Source: Halorubrum sp. CSM-61
Lineage (GTDB): Archaea; Halobacteriota; Halobacteria; Halobacteriales; Haloferacaceae
Assembly (NCBI RefSeq): GCF_003781945.1
Contig: NZ_RJJW01000002.1
Location: 490,864 to 540,387 of the forward strand
Length of the DNA: 49,524 nt
Direction: 5' to 3'
Shown here: positions 3,574 through 42,715 of the stretch, one piece after another
How positions within the stretch are numbered: the first letter of the stretch is position 1
Layout: the number at the start of each line of letters is the position of its first letter
Notes under the pieces: model-generated
Told to the model about the DNA's origin: nothing
Seen by the model: the letters and a program-made list of their open reading frames with translations, nothing else
Database searches by the model: none
Made by a program: the position numbers and the translations under genes

Positions 3574-3611
3574 GATAAAGAAAACCGCAAGGAGTCGGCC
3601 CGTGAGGGCCG
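3574..3611 (-). terminator. Terminator of S-layer gene 1
   Basis: A perfect six-base-pair hairpin (3596-3601 with 3606-3611, loop 3602-3605) lies about 33 bases after the S-layer stop. On the minus strand it is followed by a T-rich run ending in tttctttat. The second S-layer gene has the same structure at 7704-7742 with one change that is a G-U wobble only in minus-strand RNA, supporting RNA-level function. Confidence 0.75.
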
Positions 3612-3643
3612 GTAGTTAGCGAGTGTGGTGAATCGCAGCCGCG

Positions 3644-6619
3644 TTACTCGTTACGCCGCGTCGCGAGCAGCGCAGCCGCGATGAGGGCGACGAGGGCGAC
3701 GAGCGCACCGAAGCCGGGCGTGCCGTCTTCGGAGCCGTCGTCACCGTCTTCGCCGTCGGATCCGTCGTCACCGTCGTCGGAACCGTCCTCACCGTCGTCG
3801 GTTCCGTCTTCGCCGTCGTCGGTACCGTCCTCACCGTCGTCGGTACCGTCCTCACCGTCTTCGCCGTCCTCACCGTCTTCGCCGTCCTCGGTACCGTCGT
3901 CGACCTGCTCGACGATGACACCGTCAACGGCGTCCTGGCCGCTGAAGGCAGCCTGACGGAACGAAGCCGTGAACGTGTCGTTCACGCTCTGCGAGCTCAG
4001 GTCGTACGGAGCGGCCTCGAACGAGCCGTCAGCGTTGACCGCGATCTCGTCGGCGGTCAGCGTGAAGCGCGGCGAGGTGTCCTGGTCCGAGCGCAGGCGG
4101 ACTGCGAACTCGGTACCGGGCGCGACGTTCGTCGTGCCGGTGATCGAGGATTCCTCGCTCAGCGGCGCCTCGACGAGATCGTCGTTGTTCGTGTCGAACT
4201 CTGCTTCGGCCTCTTCGACGGCGAACGTCGCGTTCGCTGTCTCGTAGGCGTCTTCGAGCTCGTCAGAGTCGAAGGTAGAGCCGGCACCACGCAGGAGACG
4301 CTGGTCCTGCACCGTGAAGTCAACCTGGTACTCGTCGCCGTCCTCGAACGTGTCCGAGGCGACAGAGTTCACAGTGTCGATGTCGGTGAGCACGTAGTAG
4401 TTGTCCGTCTCGCCGTCGTAGACAACCGTGAAGGCGCTCGTGAACTGACTCTCAGTCAGATCCGCGGCCACGTCGACCGTCTTGGGGTCGGCGTTGCGGC
4501 CGGGGTTCTGCTCTTCGAGCACCAGACTCGACGCGTTGTCAGAGTTGGACACACCATTGAGTCCATTGTTGCTCGTCGAGAGCAGGTTGTACAGCTGCGT
4601 CGTGGCGTCGTCACCGTCCGCACTGACGTTCGAGAGGGCTCCCTCGACGCCAGGGGCGGTAATCTGGTGGACGAGCACGTCGCTGTCGCTCGGGTTGCTC
4701 GACGTGTCGAGCGCGATCGTTTCGGTCTCGGTGATCGTGTCACCAGTCGCGTTGTTGATCGCATCGACAACGTCAACGTCGTCGTCGTCGAGCGCGTCGC
4801 TCACGCTCTCAGCGCCGTCGCCGCTCGTCCGCCACAGCGCCATCTCGGGCGCCGTGCGCTCCTCAATGAGGAGCGTGGACACGTCGTCCTCGTTGGAGAA
4901 CGCGTCTTCCGCGTTGCTCGCCGAAGCGGAGATAATCTCGTAATCGCCCGTGTCGAGCATCTTGCCCAGCGTCTGAGCGTCGCTACTCTGGTTATCGAGC
5001 GTAGCCTCGTCGTCGTCGCTCGCTGCTTCGACGATCGTTCCGCTAGCCTGACCAGCCTGGTAGGTGTTGAAGAGGATGGTGACTTCGCCGTCAGCATCCG
5101 CGTCGTCAACACCGTCAGTCACGGAGATGTTCGCCTGGTAGTTCGCTTCGTCGGCGTCGCCGATCACGACGTAGCCGGACTCGACGTCTTCGAGTTCGAC
5201 CGTGATCTCTGCGACGTCACCCTGCACAACCTCAGACGAGGCGTCGGCGAACTGCACGCCGCCCTCGCCAGCTTCGACGACGTCGAAGTCGCTGGAGGTG
5301 GCGGTGATACCGGAATTGTCGTCAGTCACTTCGATCGAGTAGGTGTCCTCGTCGGAAACCTGACCGAAGTTGGCGTCGAACTCACCGTTCGTGTCGATCT
5401 CACCGGTGACCGTATCGTACACGTCACCGTCGGAGTCGAGCAGCTCAACCGTGACGTCACGGTTGATCGTGTCGGAGGTGACCGTCGCGGTCACGTCCTC
5501 GTCAGTCTCGAACTCCTCTTCGTCGGCCTCAACTTCGAGACCGAGGTTGCTCACTTCGAGCGTCGTCTCAGTACCTGCGTCGTTCGTGATGTTGTAGTCA
5601 CCAGTCTCGAAGTCATCAGTGTCGACGACGTACACGAGACTGTTCGCGCCAGTACCACGGGTCCGGCTGACACCAGGCCCGTCAATGTCGAAGGAATCAC
5701 CGGAGGTGTTGCTTTCGAGCGCAACATTCTCACCGGAGAACGCTTCGTAGTTCCCGCTGTCGTCGTACGTCGTGACGACGCTTGGCGCGAACGTGACATC
5801 TACGGCGTCACTGCTCACGTCATTGCCAGAGGTATCCGTGACATCAGACACGGACACGTTTTCGACGTTGTTGTAAACCGTAGTCGTCGGGATTTGGACT
5901 AGTCCAGGAGCGGCTTCAGTACCGGAGATGTCGCTCACGGAAACAACGGTTCCGTTGCTCAGGCCGATATCGGCACTACCACTGGAGACGTCGACGTCCT
6001 CGCTGAAGGAGACCTCAAGAACGGGAGTTGTGGTACCGTTCTCGTAATGAGTTGCCTTCCGGATGGAAGGCGCATCCACGTCTGCCGAGACCGTGCCCAC
6101 GGTCTGGTCAGTTTCTTCGTAGGTCCCGTCTGCGTTAGCGTCCACATCAGCGGTAACGTCGAAATCACCGCTTTCCGTCACAGAGACCTGATCAGCCGTG
6201 AAGCTGACGTTGAGGCTGTCACCAGCCATTCCATTGTTGTCGTCCCACTCGATGGTAACCGTGTTCGCCGAGGCGTCAAGGTTACTATCGACGTTCGTAG
6301 TATTGGTGTCGGCACCCGTACTCTCGACAGCCTGGTTAGTTAGGCTGGCGGAGGACAGATCGAACTCATCTGCGAACTTGAACGTAACGTTCGCGTCTGT
6401 ATTGCCGTTACTGCTGTCAACACCATCTACGGTGATATTGATGTCATAAGACTGTTCTCCAGAGCCAGCGGTATCAGGCGAAATATTCCCGCCTGAAGTC
6501 CCGCTAGCTTGTGCAGCTGCCGGAGCAGCCGCAAAGCCGACGGCAACCATGGAGACGACCATGACCGCCGCGAAGAAGATCGCGTTGACCTTCTTGCGTG
6601 TAGTAGTTTCGTTTGTCAT
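3644..6619 (-). CDS. csg: S-layer glycoprotein, paralogue 1
   Basis: This 991-residue protein forms the cell-wall lattice. A Sec signal peptide occupies about residues 1-37 (hydrophobic core FFAAVMVVSMVAVGFAAA, then Ala-rich cleavage region). Then come Ig-like beta domains rich in Asp/Glu/Thr with many N-X-S/T sequons, a linker of repeated GED/GTDD units, and a C-terminal PGF-CTERM tail (TPGFGALVALV, PGF near residue 968) for archaeosortase processing and lipid attachment. From the RKATHY motif near residue 190 onward it is closely homologous to the second S-layer gene; the region before that is unrelated. It has its own promoter, leader and terminator. The low Lys and Cys content is normal for halophilic surface proteins. 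Confidence 0.95.
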   Translation of the reverse strand: MTNETTTRKKVNAIFFAAVMVVSMVAVGFAAAPAAAQASGTSGGNISPDTAGSGEQSYDINITVDGVDSSNGNTDANVTFKFADEFDLSSASLTNQAVESTGADTNTTNVDSNLDASANTVTIEWDDNNGMAGDSLNVSFTADQVSVTESGDFDVTADVDANADGTYEETDQTVGTVSADVDAPSIRKATHYENGTTTPVLEVSFSEDVDVSSGSADIGLSNGTVVSVSDISGTEAAPGLVQIPTTTVYNNVENVSVSDVTDTSGNDVSSDAVDVTFAPSVVTTYDDSGNYEAFSGENVALESNTSGDSFDIDGPGVSRTRGTGANSLVYVVDTDDFETGDYNITNDAGTETTLEVSNLGLEVEADEEEFETDEDVTATVTSDTINRDVTVELLDSDGDVYDTVTGEIDTNGEFDANFGQVSDEDTYSIEVTDDNSGITATSSDFDVVEAGEGGVQFADASSEVVQGDVAEITVELEDVESGYVVIGDADEANYQANISVTDGVDDADADGEVTILFNTYQAGQASGTIVEAASDDDEATLDNQSSDAQTLGKMLDTGDYEIISASASNAEDAFSNEDDVSTLLIEERTAPEMALWRTSGDGAESVSDALDDDDVDVVDAINNATGDTITETETIALDTSSNPSDSDVLVHQITAPGVEGALSNVSADGDDATTQLYNLLSTSNNGLNGVSNSDNASSLVLEEQNPGRNADPKTVDVAADLTESQFTSAFTVVYDGETDNYYVLTDIDTVNSVASDTFEDGDEYQVDFTVQDQRLLRGAGSTFDSDELEDAYETANATFAVEEAEAEFDTNNDDLVEAPLSEESSITGTTNVAPGTEFAVRLRSDQDTSPRFTLTADEIAVNADGSFEAAPYDLSSQSVNDTFTASFRQAAFSGQDAVDGVIVEQVDDGTEDGEDGEDGEDGEDGTDDGEDGTDDGEDGTDDGEDGSDDGDDGSDGEDGDDGSEDGTPGFGALVALVALIAAALLATRRNE

Positions 6620-7703: not shown

Positions 7704-7742
7704 GCGATAAAGAAGCCGCGTGGAGTCGACCCGTGAGGGCCG
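7704..7742 (-). terminator. Terminator of S-layer gene 2
   Basis: A hairpin (7727-7732 with 7737-7742, loop gtga) follows the S-layer 2 stop. Minus-strand RNA has one G-U pair in place of the G-C in the paralogue's terminator. A T-rich run follows (ttctttatc). The hairpin and surrounding 3' sequence are shared with the paralogue. Confidence 0.72.
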
Positions 7743-7774
7743 GTGGTTAGCGAGTGGTGTGAATCGCTGCTGCG

Positions 7775-10633
7775 TTACTCGCGACGCCGTGTCGCGAGGA
7801 GCGCGGCAGCGATGAGCGCGACGAGGGCGACGAGCGCACCGAAGCCGGGCGTACCGTCTTCGGTTTCGCCGTCGGTGCCGTCGGTTCCGTCGTCGGTTCC
7901 GTCTTCACCGTCGTCGGTTCCGTCGTCGGTACCGTCGTCACCGTCGGTGACGTTGCCGTCGTCGCCGTCTTCACCGTCAGTAACGTTGCCGTCGTCACCG
8001 TCGTCACCGTCGGTGACGTTGCCGTCGTCGCCGTCAGTGACGTTGCCGTCGGTTCCGTTGCCGGCCGATTCGACGATGACACCGTCAACGGCGTCCTGGC
8101 CGTCGAAGGCGGCCTGACGGAACGTCGCCTCGAAGGTGTCGTTGACGCTCTGTTCGCTCAGATCGAACGGAGCGGCCTCGAACGAGCCGTTAGCGCCGGT
8201 CGAAACCTCGTTTGCGGTTAGCGTGAAGCGCGGCGAGGTCTCGTCAGTCGAGCGCAGGCGGACTGCGAACTCGGTACCGGGCGCGACGTTCGTCGAGCCA
8301 GTGACCGAGGAATTCTCGCCCATCGGCGCCTCGATGAGATCGTCGTCGTTCGTATCGAACTCTGCTTCGGCCTCTTCGACGTCGAACGTCGCGTTCGCCG
8401 TCTCGTAGGCGTCTTCGAGGTCGTCAGCGTTATCGAAGCCGCTGGCCGAGCCCTGCAGGAGGCGTTCGTCCTGCACCGTGAACTCAGCCGAGAACTCGTC
8501 GCCGTCCTCGAAGTCCTCACCAGCTTCGTCGTTCAGGCTGTCCTGGTCGACGAGGATGTAGTAGTTGCCCGTCTCCCCGTCGTAGGCAACCGTGAAGACG
8601 TTCTCGAAGGCGGTCTGTCCGAGCTCGCTCGCGTTGATCGTCTTCGCCTCTGCGTTACGGCCGGGGTTCTGCTCCTCGAAGATGAGGTCGGCCGCGTACG
8701 CGTTGTTCTGGTTGTTACCGTTGTTCAGCAGTTCGTACAGGTTCTCCGTCGCAGTGTTGTCGGACGCGCCGACAGATTCGAGCGCGCCTTCAAGACCGGG
8801 AGCGGTAACCTGGTGAACCAGCACGTCGCTGTCCGTACCGTCCGGGTCGAGTGCGACCGAGTCGGTCTCCGTGATAGCGTCGTTGTTGACCGAGTCGTTG
8901 ATCGCGGTGACGACATCGACATCGTCGTCGTCGAGTGCGTCGCTCACACTCTCAGCACCGGACGGGCTCGTCCGCCACAGCGTCATCTCCGGCGCTGTAC
9001 GCTCCTCGATGAGGAGCGTGGACACGTCGTCCTCGTTGGAGAACGCGTCCTCCGGGTTGTCCGCGGCAGCGGAGATCATCTCGTAGTCGCCCGTATCGAG
9101 CATCGTTCCGAGCTCTTGGGCATCGCTATTCTGGTCTTCGAGCGTAGCCTCGTCGTCATCGCTCTCGGCTTCGACGATCGTGCCGCTAGTCTGACCAGCC
9201 TGGTAGGTGTTGAAGAGGATGGTGACTTCGCCGTCAGCATCCGCGTCGTCAACACCGTCAGTCACGGAGATGTTCGCCTGGTAATTCGCGTCGTCCTGGT
9301 CGCCGATCACGACGTAGCCGGACTCGACGTCGTCGAGTTCGACCGTGATCTCGGCAACATCACCCTGCGTGACGTCAACCGAGCCGTTAGCGAACTGCAC
9401 GCCGCCCTCGCCAGCTTCGACGACGTCGAAGTCGCTGGAGGTGGCAGTGACACCGGAGTCGTCGTCAGTCACTTCGATCGAGTAGGTGTCCTCGTCGGAA
9501 ACCTGACCGAAGTCGGCGTCGAACTCACCGTTCGAGTCGATCTCGCCAGTGACCGTATCGTACACGTCACCGTCGGAGTCGAGCAGGTCAACCGTGACCG
9601 GGCGGTTGATCGTGTCGGAGGTGACCGTCGCGGTCACGTCCTCGTCCGTCTCGAACTCCTCTTCGTCGACCTCAACCTCGAGGCCGAGGTCGCTCACTTC
9701 GAGAACAGTCTCGGTACCTGCCTCGTTCGTGATGTTGTAGTCACCAGTCTCGAAGTCATCAGTGTCAACGACGTAGACCTGGCTGTTTGCACCGGTACCA
9801 CGAGTTCGGCTGACACTGGGACCGTCGATGTCGAACGCGTCGTTCACGGCGCCTTCAAGCGCGACGTTTTCGCCAGAGAACGCATCGTAGTTCACAGAGT
9901 CGTCCGTCGTGTCAACCGTGCTCGGCGCGAATGTGACATCGAAGTCGTCATCACTCACATCGTTGCCAGCGGTGTCAGTAACACCACTCTGGACCGAAAC
10001 GTTCTCGACGTTGTTGTAGACATCTCCAGTCTCAACGATAAGCTGGCCGGCGTTATTCTCAGAGATGCCGGAGGTGATCGTCTCAGTCGTACCGTCGCTC
10101 AGGCCGACCACGACTTCAGGGGATCCGCTGACATCAATATCGTTGGGGTAAGCGACCTCAACGATAGCGGTGTCAGATGAATCCACGTAATGAGTCGCCT
10201 TCCGCGGCTCGTCGCCACCCGTTTCGTCAATGGTCAGAGTGGTCTCGGACCCGGCATTATTTTCCAGATCGTCACCGTCGTTCAGCGAGGCATTTTCGTA
10301 TGCGTAGACGGTGTATTCGCCCTCATCAAGGTCACTAGCATCGAGTGACCAGCTGTTGTCGCTACTGGGATCGGAGACTGTAGCACTTGGCTCACCAGAG
10401 TCGAAGGTGCCATTGCCGTTAGAGTCTATAGCAACCTGAACTGCGTTTGTCCCGGTAGCATCGACTGTACCACTTACGGTTCCGGATTGGGTTACCGGAT
10501 TGTCGAGCGTAATGCTCGAGTCGTCTGCAGCCGCCGGAGCGGCCGCAAAGCCGATCGCAACCATGGAGACGACCATGATTGCTGCGAAAAAGACCGCGCT
10601 GGCCTTTCCGCGATAGTTTGTATCGTTTGTCAT
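7775..10633 (-). CDS. S-layer glycoprotein, paralogue 2
   Basis: This is a 952-residue protein with a Sec signal peptide (about residues 1-37), Ig-like domains and a PGF-CTERM tail (PGF near residue 929). The first mature domain, before RKATHY, is unlike that of paralogue 1. The rest aligns almost without gaps, with some blocks identical at the nucleotide level. The stalk differs: four NVTDG repeats plus one NGT give five N-glycosylation sequons, where paralogue 1 has only acidic GED/GTDD repeats. It lies directly upstream of paralogue 1 on the same strand, but each gene has its own promoter and terminator. Which one builds the main lattice cannot be told from sequence. Confidence 0.94.
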   Translation of the reverse strand: MTNDTNYRGKASAVFFAAIMVVSMVAIGFAAAPAAADDSSITLDNPVTQSGTVSGTVDATGTNAVQVAIDSNGNGTFDSGEPSATVSDPSSDNSWSLDASDLDEGEYTVYAYENASLNDGDDLENNAGSETTLTIDETGGDEPRKATHYVDSSDTAIVEVAYPNDIDVSGSPEVVVGLSDGTTETITSGISENNAGQLIVETGDVYNNVENVSVQSGVTDTAGNDVSDDDFDVTFAPSTVDTTDDSVNYDAFSGENVALEGAVNDAFDIDGPSVSRTRGTGANSQVYVVDTDDFETGDYNITNEAGTETVLEVSDLGLEVEVDEEEFETDEDVTATVTSDTINRPVTVDLLDSDGDVYDTVTGEIDSNGEFDADFGQVSDEDTYSIEVTDDDSGVTATSSDFDVVEAGEGGVQFANGSVDVTQGDVAEITVELDDVESGYVVIGDQDDANYQANISVTDGVDDADADGEVTILFNTYQAGQTSGTIVEAESDDDEATLEDQNSDAQELGTMLDTGDYEMISAAADNPEDAFSNEDDVSTLLIEERTAPEMTLWRTSPSGAESVSDALDDDDVDVVTAINDSVNNDAITETDSVALDPDGTDSDVLVHQVTAPGLEGALESVGASDNTATENLYELLNNGNNQNNAYAADLIFEEQNPGRNAEAKTINASELGQTAFENVFTVAYDGETGNYYILVDQDSLNDEAGEDFEDGDEFSAEFTVQDERLLQGSASGFDNADDLEDAYETANATFDVEEAEAEFDTNDDDLIEAPMGENSSVTGSTNVAPGTEFAVRLRSTDETSPRFTLTANEVSTGANGSFEAAPFDLSEQSVNDTFEATFRQAAFDGQDAVDGVIVESAGNGTDGNVTDGDDGNVTDGDDGDDGNVTDGEDGDDGNVTDGDDGTDDGTDDGEDGTDDGTDGTDGETEDGTPGFGALVALVALIAAALLATRRRE

Positions 10634-16364: not shown

Positions 16365-16973
16365 TTATAAACCCGAATGCGGTCGGCGTCGCCGGCGGCT
16401 CCGCCGCCGGCTGTCACCGGGCTTCGCCCGGTTGCCCGAGGGACTGTGTCCCTCGCTGCAAGAGGCGCGTCGCGCCTCCCTGCGTGCCTCCGAGCGGCCG
16501 CCCTCGGCGACCGTTGAGGAGCACGCGCGAGGGAGTCGCTGGCGCCGTCGGCGCCAGCGACAGGGCGAGAGCGAAGCTCTCGCTAGCAACCGGACGTAGT
16601 CCGGTGACGAGGTTGGGGAGGCGTGAGGCGCCGTGCGGTTGCGGGTGGGTGGGACTCAAAGGGGCAGTCGCCGGCGGCTTCGCCGCCGGCTGCCAGAGGC
16701 GCGAAGCTCTCGCCCTGCCGCGAGGGCGGCGCAGGCGTTCACGAGAGCGGAGCTCTCGTGAGCCAATCAGAACGCTTCGCGTTCTGATGACGACGTAAGC
16801 ACCGCAAGGAGTGAGCAAAGCGAACGACTGAGGAGCGTGGTTCGAGAGAGCGAAGCTCTCTCGTCATCACGAAAGGCGCTTCGCGCCTTTCGAACGACAG
16901 CGAGCGTGCGCCGCCCTCACGGCTGGGGCTTTGGAGGTGTTCACCGCCGATCTGCAGTCAACCACTTATAAAC
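16365..16973 (+). repeat. Dispersed structured repeat, copy 2, expanded by nested hairpins
   Basis: It is bounded by ttataaac at 16365-16372 and 16966-16973. The order of cores is as in the other copies: stem 3 (16495-16513), stem 2 (16535-16561), gaggttggggaggcgtgag, gggactcaaaggggcag (16651-16667), gacgtaagcaccgca, and gctggggctttggaggtgttcacc. Between these cores lie extra perfect hairpins of 7-10 bp with three-base loops, absent from the other copies. It is therefore about twice the normal size. Reading frames across it are not conserved. Confidence 0.85.
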
Positions 16974-17028
16974 GATCGATAGAACCATCAAAAACGCTCA
17001 TCACCCGTCCGCCGATCGCATCCGACTA

Positions 17029-18426
17029 TTACTCCGCGTCGTTCGGAGCCGCCTCGGGCTCGCCGCCCGACTCGACCGCCTCGTCCTCGCTCATCGACTT
17101 CGCCGCCTCCGCGGCGTCGAGCACGGTGACCCGCGCCGACATGATCCGGGTGTTGTCCACGCGCTCGATCCGGATCCGGACCCCGTCGAACTCGATCTCC
17201 TCGCCCTCCTCGACGAGGCGCCCCGCACGATTAAACACGAAGCCGGCGAGCGTCTCGAACTCCTCGCCCTCGGGGAGATCGATTCCGAGAATCTCGTTGA
17301 CCTCGTCGATGTTCACCTCCCCCTGCACGACGGCGACGTTGTCCTCTAAGAACTCCACCGGGGCCTCCTCGTCGCCCTCCAGGATCTCGCCGACGATCTC
17401 CTCGACCATGTCTTCGAGGGTGATGATCCCCTCCGTGGTCCCGAACTCGTCGATGACGGTGACCATCTGGAGGCGGTTGTCCTGCATCTCCGCGAGCAGC
17501 TCGTCGGCGTTCTTCGACTCGGGGACGTGCAGCGTCGGCTTCACGACCCGCTCCAGCGACGGCTCGCCCTCGGAGTAGCGAAGCTCGCGCACTAAGTCCC
17601 GCACCGTGACGACGCCGATGATGTTGTCGAGGTTCCCCTCGTAGACGGGGACGCGCTCGTGGTCGGCCTGGATGCACTTCTCGATCGCCTCCTCGACGGA
17701 GGACTCCTTCGCGACCGCGGTGACGTCGAGGCGGGGTGTCATCACCTCCTTGGCGATGGTGTTGTTGAACCGGAAGATGCGGTCGAGCATCTCGCGTTCC
17801 TCCTCCTCGATGACGCCCTCGCGCTCGCCCGTCTCGATGATGTTTTGGATCTCCTCGCGGGTGACGTACGTCGACTCGATCGCGGCCCGACCGCCGGTCA
17901 CCTTGTTGACCGCGCGGGTGAGGTAGTCGAAGACGACGACGAGCGGGTACAACACGCCCTCGGAGAGCTTCAGCGGGCGGGCGATCCGCAGCGCCCACGA
18001 CTCGGTGTTCTCGACGGCGTACGACTTCGGCGCGGTCTCGGCGAACAGCAGCACGATCGCCGTGATCCCGAAGGTGGTGAGCAGGATGGTGACCACCGCG
18101 CTCTCGACGTAGACGCCGATGAGCGTCGTCGCGATCGCCGTGATGCCGATGTTCACGAGGTTGTTGCCGACGAGGATCGTCACCAGCAGCCGGTGGGGGT
18201 TCTGCTTCAGGCCCTCGATCGTCTCGGCGCTGCCGACGCCCTCCTCGACGAGGCTCTCGATCCGGTGTTTCGGCAGCGAGAACATGGCGATCTCCGACGA
18301 GGAGAAGAACGCCGACATCGCGAGCAAGACGATTATCGTGAGGACGCCGAGGACCGTCACGATCGGGTCGTCCATGGCTGGCAGCTGCGGAACGCCGGTC
18401 GTCAACGTGGTCGACCACAAGCCCAT
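17029..18426 (-). CDS. CorC/HlyC-type (CNNM) membrane protein with CBS pair
   Basis: This 465-residue protein has an N-terminal DUF21/CNNM transmembrane domain (about residues 20-190: SAFFSSSEIAMFSLPKHRI, ILVGNNLVNIGITAIATTL). A CBS-domain pair follows (MTPRLDVTAV..., VTVRDLVRELRYSEGEP, MVTVIDEFGTTEGIITLEDM), then a C-terminal CorC_HlyC domain (about 370-445). The family is linked to Mg2+ or Co2+ export or regulation, with nucleotide-sensing CBS domains. Substrate is not certain here. It is a single gene; an in-frame ATG at 18375 is an alternative start. Confidence 0.9.
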   Translation of the reverse strand: MGLWSTTLTTGVPQLPAMDDPIVTVLGVLTIIVLLAMSAFFSSSEIAMFSLPKHRIESLVEEGVGSAETIEGLKQNPHRLLVTILVGNNLVNIGITAIATTLIGVYVESAVVTILLTTFGITAIVLLFAETAPKSYAVENTESWALRIARPLKLSEGVLYPLVVVFDYLTRAVNKVTGGRAAIESTYVTREEIQNIIETGEREGVIEEEEREMLDRIFRFNNTIAKEVMTPRLDVTAVAKESSVEEAIEKCIQADHERVPVYEGNLDNIIGVVTVRDLVRELRYSEGEPSLERVVKPTLHVPESKNADELLAEMQDNRLQMVTVIDEFGTTEGIITLEDMVEEIVGEILEGDEEAPVEFLEDNVAVVQGEVNIDEVNEILGIDLPEGEEFETLAGFVFNRAGRLVEEGEEIEFDGVRIRIERVDNTRIMSARVTVLDAAEAAKSMSEDEAVESGGEPEAAPNDAE

Positions 18427-20419: not shown

Positions 20420-20547
20420 ACTCCGTCGTTTGCGGCTTCCGTGCTTAATCGCTTCGGTACGGCGGATCCGTCGAAGTATGGGTCGCAGCTGTCAACGCCG
20501 TTCCGCGGAACTCGCGAGAGTACGTGTCTCAGTTCAGTCGATCGGCT

Positions 20548-20912
20548 GTTTATACGTGATCGAGCGGTGTCGCTGTCGGCCGTTTATACGTGATCGAGCG
20601 GTGTCGCTGTCGGCCGTTTATACGTGATCGACGGCGCTAGGGTGAACACCTCCAAAGCCCCAGCCGCGAGGGCGGCGCACGTTCGTTGCGCGCCTCGCTC
20701 GCGTTGCTCGCTGCGGTGCTTACGTCACCTGCGCTGCCCTCGCAGCTGCCCCTTTGAGTCCCACCCCGTACAGCACCGCCTCCGCACCTCACGCCTCCCC
20801 AGCCTCGTCGCTGGCGCCTTATGAGGCGCCAGCGACTCCCTCGCGCGACGCTCCTCGTGGCCGCCGATGGCGGCCACTCGGAGGCGCGCGCCACCGCACT
20901 GTTCGTTTATAA
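20548..20912 (-). repeat. Dispersed structured repeat, copy 3 (most complete)
   Basis: Read on the minus strand: ttataaac, then stem 3 (gtggccgcc-atc-ggcggccac), gagggagtcg, stem 2 (13 bp, gtcgctggcgcct-cata-...), gaggctggggaggcgtgag, gggactcaaaggggcag, stem 1 (19 positions, one wobble and one mismatch), gacgtaagcaccgcagcgag, ggggctttggaggtgttcacc, and finally three TATA-like boxes at 34-bp spacing (20548, 20582, 20616). The stem arms differ from those of other copies, but their pairing is kept. Confidence 0.88.
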
Positions 20913-21134
20913 GCGATCGCCGTAATTGCTCATACCGTTTAAATACCGTATCGGCGCCATCGATCTACGATATCCACTCCCGCTATCGATCGCAAAGCAC
21001 TCTTCAGCGATCGACTGTCACAGACCGGAACCTGTCCGAAAACGGGTTTTAACAGAGCCGAACCGGCGGGTTACGCCGACTAAACCCGCGTTTACGAGGA
21101 GTATAACCAACGGGTCGACGCCGGTCGGATCGAT

Positions 21135-38497: not shown

Positions 38498-38899
38498 GTC
38501 GTCTCCGGTTCGGGATTCCGTTCGGATCGCAAGAGTGGCTGTTTCGGAGTTTCGTTCGGTCATTTATACTGGATTCAGGGCGGTAGTGACAGAGCGATCA
38601 ACACCGCCAACGCCCCAGCCGTCGCTTATAAACCGTTAACTGCGGATCGACGGCGACCACCGCCAACGCCCCAGCCGTTCGCTTATAAACCGTTAACTGC
38701 GGATCGACGGCGACCACCGCCAAAGCCCCAGCCGTGAAGCGGACGCACGCTCGTTGCGCTCCTCACTCGGTCGCTCACGCTCCCTCGCTGCGGTGCTTAC
38801 GTCACCTGCGTCCGCTTCACGGCTGCCCCTTTGAGTCCCGCCCCGACCGCAACCGCCCCGCACCTCAGGCCTCCCCAGCCTCGTCGGCCGGCGCTTATA

Positions 38900-40053
38900 G
38901 TGCTTCACAGAAGATTTAGGTGTACTCTGCGTGGGTAGGGTAATGACTGGACGGGAGAAAGAGATCGTCCGACACCTCAGTGAGGACGATCTCGACCGCT
39001 TGCTCACACAGACTGATAGCGAGAAGGTGAGCAAGCGGCTCACCTTCATCAAACGGCTGTACAAGGGTGCAACGCTCGAAGACGCAGCCGATGATGTTGG
39101 AAAGTCCCAATCAACCGGGAGTCTCTGGGCCAAACGCTGGAATGAGGGTGGACTCGGGAAACTCACGCCGAACTTCGGAGGCGGGCGGCCTCCGAAGCTC
39201 GGCGATGACGAGCGTGAGCGTCTTATCGAACGACTCGAAGAAGGCGAACCCTGGAAGAAACAGGAAATTCAGCACCTGCTGAACACAGAATTTGACGTCG
39301 AGTTTCATCCGAACTATCTGCCACGATTCCTCTCTGATCTTGGCCTCTCGTACGCGATTCCGCGTACGGAGAGGCCAGATCGACCTGATAATGCCGATGC
39401 AATCCTCGACGAACGCGTTTCCGACGCGTTCGCCGAGGATGAGGTAGACGAGCCACACAACAAACAGCCTGAAGACGACAGTGACGAGGAATGGACGGTC
39501 GATGATGATGTTCGAACAGATGGTGGGACGACGGTCGGTTTCTTCGATATCTCGCACCCACAGCCATGGGACAATTCCCAGCGACTCTACACCGTCAGTG
39601 AGCCGACGATCACCCGGCCGCTGGTGAAAATCGACACACCAGCGGCCGGGTTCTATGCGCTCAACGGTGAGAGCGTCCTCCAGTTCCCGCCCACCCAAGA
39701 GAAAGAGCAGATCTGCGCGTGTTTCAAGGAGGTTCGCGAGCAGAATCCGGGCGAGCGGATTCTGCTCGTCTTGGACAACTTCTCCTCACACATCTGTGCG
39801 CACACGCGGAAACGCGCCCACGAACTCGGAATCGACCTCATCTTTCTCCCAGTCGGCTCACCGCATCTCAACCCGATTGAGCCAGTCTGGAAAAGTCTCA
39901 AATGGGAGTCATCGCCCCTCATCGTGGAGGGCGCGGCAGAGTACCGCGCCCTCCTCGATGAAATCTTCACGAAGTTGACCGACCAGCTGAGTTTCGCAGG
40001 CTCGTGGATCAAGAATCATCTCAGCGGATTCATCCAGAAGTTGCGTTAATCAC
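38900..40053 (+). mobile_element. IS630-type insertion sequence inside the structured repeat
   Basis: The element spans about 1154 bp and has short imperfect inverted ends (gtgcttcac / RC gtgattaac). The flanks read gcgct-tata-[IS]-tata-agcgc. That fits a duplicated TATA or a TA duplication with the outer TA counted in the element. The uninterrupted stem loops of other copies have equivalent length only if TATA was the duplicated target. Confidence 0.85.
38943..40049 (+). CDS. IS630-family DDE transposase
   Basis: From ATG 38943 it is 368 residues; a GTG at 38931 is an alternative. The N-terminal part has a helix-turn-helix (SKRLTFIKRLYKGATLEDAA, DVGKSQSTGSLWAKRW) and a second DNA-binding segment (GGGRPPKLGDDERERLI). 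The DDE catalytic residues lie in VGFFDISHPQPW, LLVLDNFSSHICAH and SPHLNPIEPVWKSLKW. The frame is intact, so the element may be active. Codon use is less GC-rich than in the surroundings. Confidence 0.93.
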   Translation: MTGREKEIVRHLSEDDLDRLLTQTDSEKVSKRLTFIKRLYKGATLEDAADDVGKSQSTGSLWAKRWNEGGLGKLTPNFGGGRPPKLGDDERERLIERLEEGEPWKKQEIQHLLNTEFDVEFHPNYLPRFLSDLGLSYAIPRTERPDRPDNADAILDERVSDAFAEDEVDEPHNKQPEDDSDEEWTVDDDVRTDGGTTVGFFDISHPQPWDNSQRLYTVSEPTITRPLVKIDTPAAGFYALNGESVLQFPPTQEKEQICACFKEVREQNPGERILLVLDNFSSHICAHTRKRAHELGIDLIFLPVGSPHLNPIEPVWKSLKWESSPLIVEGAAEYRALLDEIFTKLTDQLSFAGSWIKNHLSGFIQKLR

Positions 40054-40192
40054 TATAAGCGCCGGCCGACTCCCTCGCGCGTGCTTCTCGGCCGCGGAGC
40101 GGCCTCGAAGGCACGCGCCACCGCGACGCTCACAGTTATAAATCGCCGTCCCGGGGCGCGCTTTTTAAGCCACGCGCGAACCGACGGCGGGT

Positions 40193-42378: not shown

Positions 42379-42419
42379 GTGGTGTGAGGATCGGTTGGAT
42401 CGATAAACGGTAGATGTTC

Positions 42420-42715
42420 GTTTATAAGTCGTTAGCGCCGGATCGACGGCGAACCCCTCCAAAGCCCCAGTCGGCTCCGGTCGAGGGGCTCGCTGCGCTC
42501 CTCAGTCGCTCGTTTCACTCGCTCCTTGCGGTGCTTGCGTCGCCCATCTTCTCGGAGCCGACTGCCCCTTTGAGTCCCACCCCGCACAGCACCGCCCCGC
42601 ACCTCACGCCTCCCCAGCCTCGCCGGCTCGGCGCTTACAAGCGCCGAGCCGACTCCCTCGCGCGTGCACCTCGCGCCCTGCGGGCGCTCGGCGGCACGCG
42701 CCGACCGCAACAGCG
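42420..42715 (-). repeat. Dispersed structured repeat, copy 5
   Basis: On the minus strand: stem 3 (gcgccc-gca-gggcgc type), gagggagtcg, stem 2 (12 bp, ggctcggcgctt-...), gaggctggggaggcgtgag, gggactcaaaggggcag, stem 1 outer 12 bp (cagtcggctccg), core gacgcaagcaccgca, ggggctttggaggggttc. A single gtttataa box lies at 42420-42427. The inner part of stem 1 is degenerate. Confidence 0.82.

Follow-up and report, generated by a model that had tools for sequence, protein, structure and literature searches.

Halorubrum sp. CSM-61 carries an IS630-type element inserted at the tip of a stem-loop, between two inverted arms, and the locus raises the question of what guided the element to this position. 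Targeting of TA with duplication of that TA is treated as a signature of IS630/Tc1/mariner transposons. The initial annotation took TA as the target, pointed out that a GC-rich palindrome has its sole TA in the loop, and left either base composition or an extruded hairpin as the possible guide.

The element and the repeat that it interrupts

The window, i.e., the whole stretch of 49,524 nt that was analyzed, at positions 490864-540387 of its contig, contains an intact element lodged in stem 2 of a repeat between 15-nt arms of perfect complementarity (left, gtcggccggcgctta; right, taagcgccggccgac), as had been claimed (Table 1). The range first assigned to it, 38896-40057, overshoots by 2 nt at either end. 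Indeed, of the tata described at each junction, only one TA per side is the end of the element; the other belongs to the target loop.

Table 1. Coordinates of the element, its transposase gene and its target in the window
Feature	Coordinates	Strand	Basis or remark
IS630-type insertion element, TAGTG...CACTA, 1158 nt including terminal TA	38898-40055	+	Sequence; boundaries set by empty sites
IS630-family DDE transposase, 368 aa from ATG; alternative start GTG at 38931	38943-40049	+	ORF, Pfam, NCBIfam, conserved residues
Left tip of element, TAGTG	38898-38902	+	Sequence and relatives
Right tip of element, CACTA	40051-40055	+	Sequence and relatives
Left arm of target hairpin (stem 2 of repeat), GTCGGCCGGCGCTTA	38883-38897	+	Sequence; uninterrupted stem in L188
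Right arm of target hairpin, TAAGCGCCGGCCGAC	40056-40070	+	Sequence; uninterrupted stem in L188
Interrupted repeat unit, left part (stem 1 and conserved linker CCTCCCCAGCCTCG)	38701-38897	+	Limits approximate
Interrupted repeat unit, right part (CTCCCTCGCGCGTGC and stem 3)	40056-40119	+	Limits approximate

The transposase frame, described as intact, is uninterrupted to its end in the window sequence. Its product scores 269.6 bits against the NCBIfam model transpos_IS630 and thus exceeds the curated cut-off of 100; the other NCBIfam match, to IS481, is sub-threshold, and the IS1182 family is not indicated. The Pfam matches are to DDE and HTH domains, and an HUH (Y1) domain is absent among them, so that the enzyme does not resemble that of IS200/IS605 elements. 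Across 33 protein sequences of the clade, D202 and E313 are invariant and D278 is kept in at least 90%; these residues probably form the catalytic DDE triad, an assignment of our own. A sequence search of the PDB with the transposase returned a single weak match, Sleeping Beauty (E value of 0.0019), and the AlphaFold model has a mean pLDDT of 51 and a pTM of 0.35. The tips TAGTG and CACTA are similar inverted ends in the window copy and in its relatives, with weak likeness past the tips. The host genome holds one full copy of the element, and its remaining IS630-family matches are mostly fragments, partial or split. A hairpin (cttcggagg/cctccgaag) lies within the element's own transposase gene at 39173-39197; the nested locus L049 seems to hold a further copy that entered a related transposase gene at the corresponding position.

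The interrupted repeat is made up of several hairpins, the stems of which vary between copies while the linkers are largely constant. One linker, TCACGCCTCCCCAGCCTCG, was found with one mismatch allowed in 52/52 Halorubrum genomes, at 8 to 182 occurrences per genome and 169 in the host genome. Rfam reported only two tRNAs in the window, with no match at the gathering score for the target-bearing repeat. This multi-hairpin repeat of Halorubrum looks like a structured element. Copies of it are present in the window at 1-330 and 16480-17250 (both minus strand), 20500-20920, 38580-40120 and 42418-42702. Tandem units of 34 or 57 nt, with cores that are TTATAAAC-like or TTTATACG, adjoin repeat copies at 153-322, 20542-20643 and 38622-38735. 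Elsewhere in the window, two stretches about 4.1 kb apart (3582-5047 and 7713-9190), with CGTCACCGTC-type repeats, are duplicates of 84-87% identity. A second IS630 relative (L020 in G004:C12; 62% best-segment identity) lies in a hairpin of apparently the same Halorubrum repeat family, beside GGCTGCCCCTTTGAGTCC.

Hairpins at insertions of the clade and of control elements

The search for relatives of the element gave matches in 12 of 52 genomes of the genus, in 39 of 392 genomes of the order (E value of 1e-100), in 33 plasmid records and at 47 loci on genome contigs. Tips were placed at a near-constant distance from the transposase ends with TA required at both, and the constancy of TA is therefore not measurable from the parsed set. 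Many of the 83 site records represent the same site in two collections, which leaves 56 unique sites with both flanks; hairpin scoring used 55, i.e., the 56 minus one with N. For the flank-complementarity set, 44 loci were labeled as failed (13 with tips not found, the rest incomplete), L037, L049 and L083 being among the few that also gave a parsed site. Five parsed sites lacking a flank were dropped from this set, and hairpin scoring dropped the same five plus two with N (L055 and L079).

The complementarity of the two flanks had a median of 9.25 at the 56 sites, which are partly non-independent owing to homologous targets (by eye, L045/L047, L036/L126 and L035/L075), against 5.0 in 3000 mismatched flank pairs, and the score was at least 7 at 44 of the 56 sites against 8.8% of the mismatched pairs. 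With a stricter, near-ungapped hairpin score, 35/55 insertion points reached at least 7, against 1.1% of the 1228 TA sites elsewhere in these flanks, and the TA in use ranked top among the TA sites of its flanks in 32/55 cases (2.7 expected). After the flanks had been joined without the TA, the same threshold was reached at 32/55 points and at 0.8% of 38852 positions, and the insertion point tied with or exceeded all other positions within 400 nt in 23/55. The local DNA fold lay more than two standard deviations below the local mean at 34/55 sites. With a score of 15, the window insertion is joint top among the 55 sites and the best of the 20 TA sites in its own flanks. Arm sequences differ from site to site and are unrelated.

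Seven other archaeal IS630 elements present in several copies, retrieved by family search and with ends set by aligning the copies, served as controls; L294 (left end incomplete), L323 (no alignment to the reference) and L330 (unused) were omitted. Under the same settings, a score of at least 7 was obtained at 37/55 insertions of the clade vs 1/37 control insertions (Fisher p = 5.7e-11), a comparison restricted to archaeal elements in which copies of one control element are counted singly and the G121 copies differ by up to 20%. The initial annotation had proposed to look for palindromes at other insertions, and within the same clade these 37 sites do lie between hairpin arms. Twelve of the 37 control insertions come from G121, a haloarchaeon that shares its family with the window host, where a hairpin was found at 1/12, and it is therefore unlikely that the host or its base composition explains the difference between clade and controls. 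Of the two guides considered at the outset, base composition alone is inadequate, since hairpins recur in the clade at such a frequency and the arms are unrelated between sites, whereas the hairpin holds. That hairpin structure accompanies target choice is supported.

The same clade includes the IS630-like elements ISHti6 (Halorhabdus) and ISNpe13 (Natrinema), and palindromic arms flank the copies L028 and L030 as well. Both adjoin TnpB genes and are possibly located in end hairpins of IS200/IS605-type elements. Among the divergent or further copies L250-L261, inspected by eye, arms are clear in L252, L253 and L258 and were not seen at L250, L259 and L261, the last of which carries one half of the L014 target; L256 is the same locus as L014, and the right end of L251, L254, L255, L257 and L260 is unplaced. 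Arms are present at L262. At the single-ORF IS630 copies L264, L265, L266 and L268, from outside the haloarchaea, a palindrome was not seen; their tips were not fixed, and they are hence uncounted.

According to the initial annotation, copies inserted at TA without any palindrome would leave only a preference for TA. Such copies were looked for, and a hairpin score of 3 or less was found at 14/55 sites, which bear out this expectation only in part. Three of them (L036, L056 and L085) reveal in the empty site a hairpin that a large loop or additional bases had masked. L049, a nested locus, perhaps has its ends wrongly paired, and an alternative pairing yields a hairpin. Half-hairpins were recognized by eye at three more: the right flank of L051 is also found at L008, where the left flank supplies the missing half of the hairpin, L057 carries the left half of the L014 target, and L006 combines halves of two targets. 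These half-target flanks, together with that of L261, are likely products of recombination between copies. The remaining seven of the 55 sites (L005, L009, L017, L034, L083, L109 and L112) show neither a hairpin nor an explanation.

Empty sites and junctions

The joined flanks of 24 + 26 sites were searched against the 392 genomes of the order; empty sites in this sense are homologues at other loci or in other species rather than a pre-insertion strain. An uninterrupted homologue was found for 28/58 distinct filled sites, and each of the 28 has, no more than 6 nt from the insertion point, a stem scoring 6 or more. The arrangement of left flank, TA and right flank occurred in 0/28 of these empty sites, and exact pairs of filled and empty site without TA duplication are provided by L108/L159, L110/L162, L122/L161, L029/L183 and L008/L202.

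For the window insertion, an empty site had been proposed as the means to fix the length of the duplicated target. Several other Halorubrum genomes carry the same repeat at the orthologous position with another stem sequence, so that no exact empty site exists there. A pattern search answered in its place: palindromes of the form GGCGCTTAN{0,4}TAAGCGCC occur 68 times among the 52 Halorubrum genomes (15 in the host genome), 68/68 with N=0, i.e., with no inserted bases, and L188, a different locus with a repeat of the same family, carries the exact window stem without interruption. Both give a target without duplication, and the empty target of the window is most likely GGCGCTTA^TAAGCGCC. An additional TA is thus seen neither in the 68 Halorubrum stems nor in the 28 empty sites, which runs against the view that TA was the target here; the restriction of TA to the loop of the palindrome becomes irrelevant, as the empty sites indicate that TA is not needed.

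The end dinucleotide also follows the element. Four divergent haloarchaeal copies (L014, L021, L252 and L253; 40-60% best-segment identity) have, by eye, GAGTG/CACTC tips instead of TAGTG/CACTA and likewise lie between arms. Since empty sites lack TA and the dinucleotide changes with the element, the terminal TA is, on the sequences compared, part of the element and not of the target.

With TA counted as element, the junctions of the 28 sites differ from the empty sites by 0 nt at 10, +1 at 9, +2 at 2, +4-6 at 4 and -1 at 3. Among the 23 sites with a flank identity of at least 0.85, the change is 0 nt at 8, +1 at 7, +2 at 2, +4-6 (mostly A/T) at 4 and -1 at 2, so that 17/23 gained only 0-2 nt. 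Both two-base gains repeat target bases (CG at L126, AA at L043). Single-base gains repeat a target base at L035, L045 and L084 and do not at L033 and L042, and hence are not all duplications. A/T-rich extra bases are found at L047, L056, L061 and L085. Directly outside the right tip, TATTT is present in both L083 and L085, which have different hosts and targets; at a guess, donor-adjacent bases were carried along with the element. None of the 28 sites lost more than 1 nt of target, so the stem-loop is not replaced. The loops of the 23 well-matched empty sites measure 2-6 nt, except for one of 10 nt, and the insertion lies within 0.5 nt of the loop center in 18/23; when the strongest hairpin is instead taken from the whole 52-58 nt stretch, 16/23 lie within 1 nt of its center.

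The canonical IS630 of G121 behaves differently. Among the 12 loci listed out of a much larger set of matches, four sites have an empty homologue, all colinear and with one dinucleotide at the junction: TA at L312 and L316, AA at L321, and, at L313, TA in one and CA in seven homologues. Unlike those of the window clade, these junctions are those that ordinary target duplication would give.

Target choice, rival explanations and known systems

On this evidence, there is a probability of roughly three in four that the haloarchaeal IS630-related clade selects its targets by structure, i.e., that it recognizes a palindrome of any sequence that is perfect or nearly so and has a tight loop, and enters at or near the loop center with its own TA, both arms being kept. 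Because no TA duplication is seen, the element would be IS630-related rather than a canonical IS630. A more specific proposal, which is held with less assurance and still leans toward being correct, is that a transposase of the Tc1/mariner lineage recognizes the tips of cruciforms irrespective of their sequence and attaches the two transposon ends at one and the same position in the mirror-image loops, with no need for TA and with little or no duplication. The palindrome would extrude as a cruciform, or as folded hairpins, to present two mirror-image loops, and the DDE transposase would connect each loop, at its middle, to one 3′ end of the transposon. As the two loops are mirror images, the joints would fall opposite each other, or nearly so, after re-annealing; loops of even length are predicted to give no duplication, odd or off-center ones a duplication of 1-2 nt. 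Fixed positions of strand transfer fail to predict the gains of 4-6 nt or the new single bases noted above, and these unpredicted bases speak for some end processing.

Such bases would be readily explained if a hairpin nuclease cut the tips of extruded palindromes and an excised element were joined into the break by end joining. Nucleases of the SbcCD/Mre11-Rad50 type are candidates for the cut. Capture at a break would also account for the missing duplication, the variable junctions, the one-base additions foreign to the target and the A/T-rich extras, and it gains a little in probability from the one-base gains that are not duplications and from the fact that the intact tips of parsed copies, being required for parsing, do not count against it. 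However, 8/23 well-matched sites show no base change, a precision greater than that usual for end joining, and a break made by the host should serve the G121 control IS630 too, which has no preference for hairpins (1/12). Break capture is therefore judged unlikely, if to be taken seriously. A somewhat lower probability is given to a hairpin formed on the lagging-strand template, with the element entering the loop of that one strand. Entry into a single-strand hairpin loop resembles transposition of the IS200/IS605 type and fits both the hairpin loops and the missing duplication, but the enzyme belongs to the DDE transposases, which as a class form 3′ joints, and its Pfam matches do not include an HUH domain.

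Two further readings have very little in their favor. Ordinary TA targeting with duplication, the palindromes being a by-product of AT-rich loops in GC-rich stems, could appeal to the TA at both ends of parsed copies (which the parser requires) and to the description of IS630 as targeting NTAN in the portion of the IS1272 study consulted (PMC5678879). Nevertheless, the other TA sites in the flanks rarely lie in hairpins, the IS630 of a related host behaves otherwise, and a TA target-site duplication is rejected on the 28 empty sites and the 68 Halorubrum stems, which makes this reading highly improbable. Lower still, at the edge of what is credible, stands the creation of the arms by the insertion itself, as an inverted duplication of one flank: the arms do vary by site and many are perfect, but 28 sites have uninterrupted palindromic homologues in genomes across the order, which contradict an origin of the arms by insertion.

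If the structure-directed reading is true, the clade is, to our knowledge, the first structure-directed member of the Tc1/mariner superfamily, and a change from sequence to structure as the basis of target choice is possible in this superfamily with the catalytic core kept. Insertions could then mark the palindromes that extrude in living haloarchaeal cells and so make the question of cruciforms in vivo testable, and TA duplications assumed for elements of the clade would need correcting.

The window element shares with IS630/Tc1-mariner elements a transposase that is IS630 by NCBIfam, the DDE residues and a TA beside both tips, whereas the TA of its clade is borne by the element, is not duplicated and adjoins hairpin targets. 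Hairpin-forming repeats are also entered by IS110/IS1111 and other elements, which insert into REP palindromes or integron attC hairpins by means of DEDD enzymes with a guide RNA or by recognition of a specific REP sequence; in the window clade, by contrast, the hairpin sequence varies freely. The nearest precedent may be IS1272, a member of the IS1182 family, unlike the window transposase. In the portion of the study consulted (PMC5678879), its transposition is described as "inverted repeat-replacing" or structure-dependent, with the stem-loop being replaced, and the authors propose a cruciform target, the earlier known targets not being inverted repeats. As far as that text goes, IS1272 and the window clade have in common a DDE transposase, inverted-repeat targets of unrelated sequence (for IS1272 also some non-repeat targets) and no target duplication, but IS1272 removes and replaces the stem-loop, whereas the window clade keeps both arms with the element in the loop. 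No description of the targets of ISHti6 and ISNpe13, both compared by name only, was found in the literature searched, and the titles and abstract beginnings of the open-access literature gave no account of hairpin-tip targeting by IS630. What appears new is an IS630-related clade that combines hairpin-directed insertion with the lack of a TA duplication, structure-dependent insertion as such being already known from IS1272.
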